A stretch of DNA of 64,000 nt, taken from positions 21,126-85,125 of the forward strand of contig CALDNT010000094.1 of the NCBI GenBank assembly GCA_937915145.1, written 5' to 3'. Numbering within the stretch: position 1 is the stretch's first letter; each line of letters opens with the position of its first letter. The translations under genes were made by a program, and so were the position numbers. Source of the DNA: an uncultured Reyranella sp. Its GTDB lineage: Bacteria > Pseudomonadota > Alphaproteobacteria > Reyranellales > Reyranellaceae. Below are positions 13,450-16,306 of this stretch, piece after piece. The notes below the pieces were generated by a model. That model ran no database searches and was not told the origin of the DNA. It worked only from the letters and a program-made list of their open reading frames with translations.

Positions 13450-13699
13450 CGACCCACTCCCCAACCATTTCCGCCATGCGGTCCCTAGTGAACCTTTCTT
13501 GAGGCGGGTGGCCGATATATCGTGGTGGGCACCCAACAACCCACAAACTGTAGCCTGCCATAAGGGTGAGTCTCGACGCAATAAGAAATGAAGCGGAAAT
13601 CGAGAAAAGAGTCAGCGATTCCATAAATTTAATCCCCAGCGCTAAGATTCGAGTCTCAGAATTCCGCAGGCCGAATCTGACAGTTTTGCCCTGTTTTTG

Positions 13700-13724
13700 C
13701 GCATCTATCCCTTGACGACAAGTA
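13700..13724. repeat. Left terminal inverted repeat of IS1595-like element
   Basis: 22/25 match to the reverse complement of 15708-15732. Confidence 0.9.
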
Positions 13725-13765
13725 CGCCAGATGCTATCCCTTAGCCATCGCGAGGGGGATAGGCC

Positions 13766-14668
13766 GTGAAATATACTTTCAAGCAGTTCCAGACCGAGTA
13801 CCCGGATGATGCGGCCTGCTTGGATAAGATCATGGAGCGCCGGTACGGTGGCACCGTCCTAACGTGTCCGGCATGCGGTGTGTCAGAGGCCAAGTTTCAT
13901 CGCATCACGAAACGCCGGGCCTATGCCTGCCAAGACTGCGGGCATCACATTTACCCCTGCGTCGGCACCCCGTTTGAGAAGTCTAGGACGCCCCTCACGT
14001 CGTGGTTCTTCGCAATGTACCTGATGACCACCACACGCCACGGCGTGGCTGCCAAGGAGCTAGAGCGCCAGTTGGGCGTGACCTACAAAACGGCGTGGCG
14101 GATCGCCCACGAACTGCGCAAGCACATGGCGAACTCTGACAACACCGGCCCGCTGTCCGGGCATGTCGAGATGGACGAGACGTTCGTAGGCGGTAAGCGT
14201 CGTGGCCGTCGCAGCATGGGCAAGGGCGCGAACCCGCTCGCCAACAAGGCGGTCGTGTTCGGCATGCTGGAGCGGGGCGGTGCGTTGCGCGCTGGTCCGG
14301 TTCCTGATGCGAACAAGGAGACGTTGCTGCCGTACATCCTGACCAACGTGCAGCGCGGCAGCGTCATCAACACCGACGAAGCGGCAGCCTACAAGACGCT
14401 AGAGACGGCTGGCCCCTACACGCACTTTGCGGTCAATCACTCGGCTTACGAGTACGTCGCGGGCATCCACCACACGAACAGCATTGAAGGCTTCTGGGGT
14501 CACTTCAAAAAGGGCATCAAGGGAACGAACGTCGGCGTGTCCAAGAAGCATCTTTGGAAGTACGTCGCGGAATACACCTACCGCTACAACTTCCGCGACC
14601 TCGGCACCTACGGCCTGTTCAACCGCCTTGTTTGGACTTTCCAACAGCCGCGTCTAGTAGAGCCGTGA
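13766..14668 (+). CDS. IS1595 family transposase (ISXO2-like, DDE)
   Basis: N-terminal zinc ribbon (CPACG..CQDCG), GHVEMDETFVGGKRRGRR, NTDEAAAYKTL, HTNSIEGFWGHFKKGIKG. Confidence 0.95.
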   Translation: MKYTFKQFQTEYPDDAACLDKIMERRYGGTVLTCPACGVSEAKFHRITKRRAYACQDCGHHIYPCVGTPFEKSRTPLTSWFFAMYLMTTTRHGVAAKELERQLGVTYKTAWRIAHELRKHMANSDNTGPLSGHVEMDETFVGGKRRGRRSMGKGANPLANKAVVFGMLERGGALRAGPVPDANKETLLPYILTNVQRGSVINTDEAAAYKTLETAGPYTHFAVNHSAYEYVAGIHHTNSIEGFWGHFKKGIKGTNVGVSKKHLWKYVAEYTYRYNFRDLGTYGLFNRLVWTFQQPRLVEP

Positions 14669-15689
14669 AACGCTCTGCGGATCGTTCGTCGCCTTCCATG
14701 GGAGGCGGCGCCGGTTCTGCGGCGAGAGCGGGCGGAACGACGGCGCTAGGTGACGCCGCCACTGACGCGCTGCGGAGGCGCGCTATTTCCTCGCGTTGCT
14801 GCTTCACGGCAGGCATTTCTAACAACTCCACAATCTTAGATGTTGGAACCACTACCCCCATGCCCACTGGGACGGTCACTGGGCCGCCTCTGCCAACGGC
14901 AAGTATCTCGCTGGGCTTCGCGTGCCAAGCTGCTTGGAATAGACCAAGCAAGAATACATTTTCCTGCGGGAAAATCCCTGTGACTTGCGAAGACTTCCCG
15001 TTCCGATCAATGGCGTTGAGATTTTGAAGGCGCATGCTTGGCCGAACAAAAACCGGAGATCCGCTAAGTCCCGGCAGACTCTGAGATTCAACAAGATAGG
15101 CGTCAACCCATCGCGTCTTGCTCTCGTCGTCCCAGTCTCGAATCGGAACTTTTTCGTCGCCGGGCATGAGGGAGATGTTGCCGGTGTGGACGACCGGGAG
15201 ATTGCGGCTAGCGCCCACCAGCATCCTAAAGAGGCCTACGGTGTGGCAAACGTCGCCGGCTCCAACGTGCATGGCGTAGGACACATCCTCCGTCAGAAGA
15301 GTGCCCGGCCCTAAAAACGAGTGGCTGTATCCCGGCTTGCCAACCCCAAAGGTAATGGCCGCGAGATCAACATTTTCGTCGTCGTGGAAGAACCAGGATA
15401 CGCGCTCATTCGCCTCCAGGTTGACGCACGAGCCATCGTCTTTGTTCAACCGGACAACGAACCCCACGTCGCCAAGCGGCTTCGCAACGTGACGCGCCGT
15501 GATGAGGTAGCCCACCCCATCGTACTGAAGCAAAAAGCCGGTTCCGACGCAGTGGATGCCCTTCTCGCGATCCTTCTCGTCGGCAAATCCTAGGAAGACG
15601 ACTGACGTTCTGATGTCGTCATGCAGCCGCACCTTGAAGGCTCCAATCCCGTGCCAGACAGTCGGCCCCAGCCGATACCCGATGGGCAT
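14619..15689 (-). CDS. Trypsin-like serine protease (IS passenger gene)
   Basis: 356 aa with H in YLITARHVA, D in NVDLAAI, S in PGLSGSPVF; lies inside the IS inverted repeats. Confidence 0.85.
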   Translation of the reverse strand: MPIGYRLGPTVWHGIGAFKVRLHDDIRTSVVFLGFADEKDREKGIHCVGTGFLLQYDGVGYLITARHVAKPLGDVGFVVRLNKDDGSCVNLEANERVSWFFHDDENVDLAAITFGVGKPGYSHSFLGPGTLLTEDVSYAMHVGAGDVCHTVGLFRMLVGASRNLPVVHTGNISLMPGDEKVPIRDWDDESKTRWVDAYLVESQSLPGLSGSPVFVRPSMRLQNLNAIDRNGKSSQVTGIFPQENVFLLGLFQAAWHAKPSEILAVGRGGPVTVPVGMGVVVPTSKIVELLEMPAVKQQREEIARLRSASVAASPSAVVPPALAAEPAPPPMEGDERSAERFTALLDAAVGKSKQGG

Positions 15690-15707
15690 TTTCTACGCCT
15701 TTTCCCA

Positions 15708-15732
15708 TACTTGTCTAGAAGGGATAGATGCG
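15708..15732. repeat. Right terminal inverted repeat of IS1595-like element
   Basis: 22/25 match to the reverse complement of 13700-13724. Confidence 0.9.
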
Positions 15733-15859
15733 TGTTTTTGCGCAATGCCCGGATCGACCTGCGAGCTGCCCATTATTTCCTCGTTCTGGGTCGCCGCTGG
15801 CATGTGCCTTGCTCAAGGAGACCTGGACGCACTGATTTTCAGGGCAGCAGGAGCGGGCA

Positions 15860-16306
15860 ATGAAACGGGCTGAAGTGACCGAGAAGATCCTGAGCGCCAA
15901 GCGCATGAAGGAACTCACCTGGGACGAGATCACTAAGAAGATCGGCGGGGCCTCGAAGATCGTCGTCACCGCCGCCTGCCTCGGCCAGATGAAGATGACC
16001 AAGGAACAGGCGGCCAAGGCCGGCAAGCTGTTCGGCCTCGGCAAGGAAGAGGTCCTGCTGCTGCAGGAGGTCCCGTACCGCGGCTCGCTACCCCAGGTGC
16101 CGCCGAACGATCCACTGATCTATCGCTTCTACGAACTGGTGCAGGTCTACGGCACAACCTGGAAGGAACTAATCCAGGAGGAGTTCGGCGACGGCATCAT
16201 GAGCGCCATCGACTTCGACATGACCCTGGAACGCCAGCCCGACCAGAAGGGCGACCGCGTGAAGATTGGCATGTCGGGCAAGTTCCTGGGCTACAAGTCG
16301 TACTGA
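15860..16306 (+). CDS. cynS: Cyanate hydratase (cyanase)
   Basis: 148 aa; LTWDEITKKIG, DPLIYRFYELVQVYGTTWKELIQEEFGDGIMSAIDFDMTLER. Confidence 0.95.
   Translation: MKRAEVTEKILSAKRMKELTWDEITKKIGGASKIVVTAACLGQMKMTKEQAAKAGKLFGLGKEEVLLLQEVPYRGSLPQVPPNDPLIYRFYELVQVYGTTWKELIQEEFGDGIMSAIDFDMTLERQPDQKGDRVKIGMSGKFLGYKSY

Follow-up and report, generated by a model that had tools for sequence, protein, structure and literature searches.

The stretch of DNA that we analysed, hereafter the window, comprises 64,000 nucleotides from an uncultured Reyranella species (Alphaproteobacteria). It contains an insertion sequence (IS) of 2033 bp (13700-15732), present in a single copy in its own genome, with a transposase gene and, convergent to it, a gene for a trypsin-like serine protease (Table 1). 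The 25-nt ends are 88% complementary (22/25), the 8-bp target duplication around them is exact, and the protease frame lies entirely inside the ends, overlapping the 3' end of the transposase gene by 50 bp. A first-pass annotation of this DNA had proposed an element with such ends and duplication and with the protease wholly between the ends, and both proved to be present as placed. An alignment of 28 ends from 15 elements gives the consensus CGCATTTATCCCTTGACGACAAGTA, with the common pattern TATCCC...ACAAGTA.

Table 1. Parts of the IS1595-family element, with positions in the window.
Feature	Position	Strand	Description
Left target duplication copy	13692-13699		TGTTTTTG; exact match to 15733-15740; single copy in the empty sites of relatives
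Left terminal inverted repeat	13700-13724	+	CGCATCTATCCCTTGACGACAAGTA; 22/25 against the right end
IS1595-family transposase, 300 aa	13766-14668	+	Zinc ribbon and DDE domain; PF12762, PF12760, NF033547, catalytic motifs
Trypsin-like serine protease passenger, 356 aa, convergent	14619-15689	-	PF13365, PDC-S45, triad, AlphaFold2 model, hydropathy
Conserved C-terminal tail of the protease	14622-14701	-	About MEGDERSAERFTALLDAAVGKSKQGG; its F codon abuts the transposase stop; related elements have a homologous small convergent ORF
Right terminal inverted repeat	15708-15732	-	Pairs with the left end; end consensus
Right target duplication copy	15733-15740		TGTTTTTG

The transposase, whose frame is intact, contains the motifs DETFVGG, NTDE and NSIEGFW. 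It matches the DDE domain model PF12762 (DDE_Tnp_IS1595; E 2.9e-38, 131.7 bits, cut-off 27), the zinc-ribbon model PF12760 (E 2.7e-9, 37.3 bits, cut-off 25.4) and the NCBIfam IS1595 model NF033547 (E 2.7e-60, 203.9 bits, cut-off 75), all well above their cut-offs and in agreement with the type first assigned to it. An N-terminal zinc ribbon is found in every IS1595 group except IS1016 (PMC8101967). With the DDE domain, the N-terminal zinc ribbon and the 8-bp duplication all present, the element belongs to the IS1595 family.

The reading of the passenger as a convergent 356-aa trypsin-like protease was likewise borne out. The catalytic triad (H67/D108/S209), in trypsin order, is invariant in all 21 aligned protease sequences from this and related elements. 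The window protease matches Trypsin_2 (PF13365) with an E-value of 1.7e-5 and 26.0 bits, below the curated cut-off of 27.6, and the same model is matched by 11 of the 21 aligned proteases. Structure prediction with AlphaFold2, which the first-pass annotation had called for, gives a trypsin-type fold (pLDDT 78) whose top matches in the PDB are the protease domains of DegS, HtrA1 and Deg1, with a target-normalised TM of up to 0.66. The PADLOC model PDC-S45 (PDLC05022) matches 20/21 aligned proteases (best E 1.6e-24) and the window protease at E 2.2e-11, over positions 30-281 of 293. A domain search found no match to a PDZ domain, and hydropathy revealed no signal peptide, hydrophobic N-terminus or membrane stretch in the window protease. 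Because signal peptide, membrane stretch and PDZ domain are all missing, the protease is probably cytoplasmic.

A search with the transposase returned 44 genomic loci and 12 loci on viral contigs; L043/L122/L157 are one element, as are L044/L123/L158, and each was counted once. Where the transposase is at least 57% identical, almost all elements with a readable passenger region have a trypsin-like protease gene there, identically placed and oriented, and 21 of these proteases are full-length. In 17 elements with related ends (that of the window and 16 others) both genes lie inside a perfect 8-bp duplication, and all the duplications differ in sequence. Chance association of transposase and protease is excluded, because each of these 17 elements encloses both genes within related ends and its own perfect duplication. 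The first-pass annotation had proposed a search for further copies with both genes and different duplications, and had counted the absence of other copies with the same ends and both genes as evidence against itself; the 16 additional elements settle this point in its favour. The unit of transposase and protease occurs in many Alphaproteobacteria and in some phage-like contigs.

Related convergent proteases were also found in two elements of more distant transposase lineages, both with ends quite different from those of the window element: L146 (2258 bp, duplication AACATATT) and L147 (2212 bp, ends GGGACCTATATAC, duplication GAAGAAGG). Their transposases are 35-36% identical to that of the window and to each other, and the window protease shows higher identity to the L147 protease (39%) than to any from its own transposase lineage. 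A classification of L147 as a homologue outside any IS was rejected after a wider transposase search revealed an adjoining IS1595 transposase and ends with the perfect duplication. When the back-translated protease was searched by itself, neither genome contigs nor viral contigs gave a match, probably owing to the great diversity of the protease cores; a tblastn search of plasmids gave no match either.

The left flank of the element can be found in 74 of the 75 genomes of the family. In congeners at most 95% identical over the flank, the two flanks are joined without an insert, as in L093-L104, which read straight through around ...TGCCCTGTTTCTGGGCA... with a single copy of the duplicated stretch. 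The protease is missing from nearly all congeners and was seen in four of the 75 family genomes; the element-free relatives are also free of the protease at this site, so the outcome that would have spoken against the first reading, a protease fixed here in relatives without the transposase, did not occur. One congener (G028) has a clear relative of the element, at almost the same site as in the window. This element is split over two contigs (L009/L052 and L003/L063) because another IS has broken its transposase, yet its protease frame is intact. The duplication around it is CACTAATT/CATTAATT, and the protease shares 35-38% identity with that of the window. Since congeners near either genome have an empty site, two separate insertions would be the simpler reading.

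A non-coding stretch of about 230 bp (13460-13690 of the window) lies upstream of a YbjN-like gene; it shows good conservation throughout the genus and matches no family in Rfam. It ends in a small hairpin, and the IS is inserted into the hairpin loop. Because two congeneric genomes (the window and L009/L003) were hit at almost the same hairpin spot and the site is empty in other congeners, the near-coincident insertions suggest a local hot spot. A general preference for hairpin targets, suspected from these two sites, was rejected, there being no excess of hairpins among 17 empty sites. Beyond the right end, at 15740-16306, lies what we take from its sequence to be a cyanate-hydratase-like gene, and congeners have an NrtA/SsuA-like transporter gene in its place. 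As the gene on the right flank differs from that of the congeners, a deletion or rearrangement has probably occurred beside the right end of the element.

Transposase and protease distances correlate only weakly (Mantel r 0.15, p 0.13), and the question of protease exchange was therefore addressed with trees and AU tests. The protease tree separates two classes, A and B, on either side of a 100/99 branch. Mapped onto the transposase tree, these classes require 6 changes; shuffled labels require 5.3 on average. AU tests reject the pairing of transposase sisters as protease sisters in four pairs (p 8.8e-6 to 2.2e-4), and of protease sisters as transposase sisters in three pairs (p <= 8.1e-4). 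Elements L044 and L081 illustrate the disagreement, with transposases 83% and proteases 25% identical. Between such elements, likeness at the DNA level extends from the left end through the transposase gene to about the codons of the protease tail; in most cases it is not found again before the right end. The homologues not borne by an IS1595 element (L142, L143, L144, L145 and L149; L148, at a contig end, was left out of this comparison) are scattered through both classes, with 5 changes. Since the two trees disagree at a random level and the AU tests reject shared sister pairs, we conclude that IS backbones exchange the catalytic core of the protease among themselves; and since DNA likeness stops near the tail and mostly resumes at the right end, the rest of the element, including the C-terminal tail, stays.

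The tail itself is conserved. The pattern NPxHxEDFxxLLxAA ends all 23 proteases of the lineage (21 complete, plus the truncated L036 and L046), the tails of the window and of G028 being the most divergent (GDExxxERFTALLDAA); it is absent from the five non-IS homologues and from L146 and L147. In most elements the F codon of the tail abuts the transposase stop, which places NPxHxED outside the gene overlap, and the tail is conserved as protein, as variation is mostly highest at third codon positions. A profile built from the tails of both kinds of element matches not just the proteases but also, in related elements, small independent ORFs that converge on the transposase gene and stand beside a SocA/Panacea passenger (L082), a 255-aa passenger of no known kind (L151) or parts of type I restriction-modification systems (L159, L160). 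Elements from Patescibacteria contain a convergent ORF of 39-50 aa with the pattern GGRExxKxDFxxLLKRA (L057, L058, L060, L061, L064-L066, L077) and identities of 0.70/0.83/0.47 at the three codon positions. Looser versions can be seen in L179 (1195 bp) and L008, where no other passenger was recognised, and in L162, L168 and L169; in the profile search the weakest cases do not rise above noise level.

No model for the tail or the small ORF was found in Pfam or NCBIfam, a tblastn search with the tail peptide gave no match in plasmids or phages, and the Patescibacteria-type profile gave only one weak match (E 0.009) among 191 alphaproteobacterial genomes. With one weak profile match and none by tblastn, the spread of the small ORF in Alphaproteobacteria rests on individually examined elements. 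The protease tail is homologous to a small separate convergent gene of the wider IS1595 clade. The case that this ORF is a real IS gene is strong in the Patescibacteria set and moderate for the weakest examples.

In this wider clade the passenger slot may be occupied by a BglII-like endonuclease with a DNA methylase (L060, which has the Patescibacteria-type small ORF), parts of a type I restriction-modification system (L159), a Peptidase_M78 (L164), SocA/Panacea (L067, L082), DUF4145 (L059), the recurrent DUF7946 (L165 and L177 by Pfam, L175 similar by eye), or one of several frames that match nothing in the databases. Full ends with perfect duplications were found for L057, L058, L059, L064, L065, L067, L161, L162, L165, L170/L181, L171, L175, L177 and L179; ends with a duplication were not resolved for L060, L082, L159 and L164. 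A 2434-bp IS1595 element occurs twice in genome G452 (L170/L181), flanked each time by a different duplication (TCGAGAAA and TAGAGTTA), which is good evidence that such a unit moves together with its passenger, here a 268-aa protein with no match in Pfam or NCBIfam. That sister elements carry other passengers suggests that the passenger may be dispensable for transposition.

The structure of the protease-carrying IS is secure; its function we infer from association. In the explanation that we favour, the element would be a transporter IS (tIS) of the IS1595 family with a cargo that benefits the host. The protease would act in the cytoplasm, most likely in defence of the abortive-infection type, staying quiet until infection and then cleaving a phage or host protein, and the tail would be an accessory peptide of the IS that anchors or regulates whatever core it is fused to. 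We are very confident of the structural and evolutionary part of this explanation, whereas the defence role, argued by guilt by association, is a plausible leaning that falls somewhat short of an even chance; the explanation as a whole, a transporter IS with a defence-type protease cargo and an IS-derived tail, we consider about evenly balanced. The leaning towards defence, one of the three possible roles raised in the first-pass annotation (with stress resistance and control of transposase levels), comes from the match of PDC-S45 to 20 of the 21 proteases, from the diversity and frequent exchange of the cores, from the restriction-modification genes, SocA/Panacea antitoxin-like genes and M78 peptidase of sister elements, and from the neighbours of non-IS homologues. 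One of these homologues adjoins a reverse transcriptase (L142), and another (L145, 6851-8330) ends 1 bp before an AbiV gene (PF18728, E 3.6e-22), with which it may form a two-gene defence unit. A benefit to the host is further favoured by the intact protease frame in G028, where the transposase is broken. Against the favoured explanation stand the status of PDC families as unvalidated candidates (PMC12988326), the lack of a known function for most other passengers of the clade (DUF7946, DUF4145 and several unmatched frames) and the failure of the remaining members of the genus to retain the protease gene.

The near-universal presence of a tail-fused protease in the main lineage would also be predicted if the protease served the element, and this is the main rival, kept alive by the tail: cleavage of the transposase, or of a host transposition factor, would be guided by the tail and set the level of jumping. 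The convergent overlap of the protease gene with the transposase 3' end fits this idea, as does the homology of the tail to the small gene of the IS itself, of which a loose version exists even in L179. An enzyme fitted to its own transposase would not be expected, however, to have cores that move freely among transposases down to 35-36% identity, the tail is missing from L146 and L147, related elements have different passengers in place of a protease, and protease homologues exist outside IS; we thus regard such a role as unlikely, if still worth keeping in view. The nearest folds speak for an HtrA-like hitchhiker that would help the host in general stress or protein quality control; we estimate this as quite unlikely, and the missing PDZ domain, signal peptide and membrane stretch, the patchy distribution (4/75 family genomes) and the very diverse, exchanged cores do not fit it. 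A protease that attacks other mobile elements or rival phages, and so benefits the element or prophage carrying it, would fit both the rapid exchange, which is in keeping with conflict, and the IMG/VR contigs, where several elements occur along with integrase or recombinase-like genes; most copies are in bacterial genome contigs, however, and we consider this role improbable. Accidental pairing, with an IS that landed next to a resident protease gene, is refuted by the congeners' empty sites, which lack the protease, and is further contradicted by the 17 elements of the lineage and the two of other lineages in which perfect duplications enclose both genes; its probability is negligible.

Searches of Rfam and of the open-access literature returned no description of this arrangement, and in the open-access literature (a scope outside which ISfinder and the 2009 family paper fall) we found no account of a protease passenger, of passengers exchanged among IS backbones or of a small convergent ORF like this one, so that the accessory ORF is seemingly undescribed. 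If the favoured explanation of a defence-type cargo is true, some of the smallest bacterial mobile elements move and reshuffle proteases of a candidate phage-defence family as a single gene within 2 kb, which would provide a simple route for the spread of such genes beyond defence islands, as well as a system small enough to test; the conserved small ORF to which the protease is fused would then be an accessory component of IS1595 elements. A broader proposal, about which we remain doubtful, is that this small protein (about 39-80 aa, convergent, C-terminal DFxxLLxxA, without Pfam or NCBIfam model) might be an adapter, fused in one lineage to exchangeable effector domains, chiefly trypsin-like proteases, and that the IS might be a modular carrier of conflict-related effectors common to distant backbones.

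Among known systems the closest are the tIS of the IS1595 family, for example ISNha5 (Siguier et al. 2009, via PMC11891212). The passages of PMC11891212 that deal with them name transcription regulators (IS1595), methyltransferases and resistance genes as passengers. With the tIS as characterised there, the window element has in common IS-like ends, a single DDE transposase, an 8-bp duplication and an extra gene without known role in transposition; it differs from those described in these passages in that its passenger is a protease, exchanged between backbones and fused to a putatively IS-derived tail. PDC-S45, a PADLOC candidate for single-gene phage defence, resembles all but one of the aligned proteases, but belongs to the unvalidated PDC families, and the window protein carries the tail in addition. 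Trypsin_2 is matched by the window protease below its curated cut-off. With the HtrA/Deg proteases (DegS, HtrA1, Deg1) the window protease shares the predicted trypsin-type fold and the H-D-S triad, whereas it has neither their PDZ domain nor their signal peptide, is 14-18% identical to them and is found in other surroundings.
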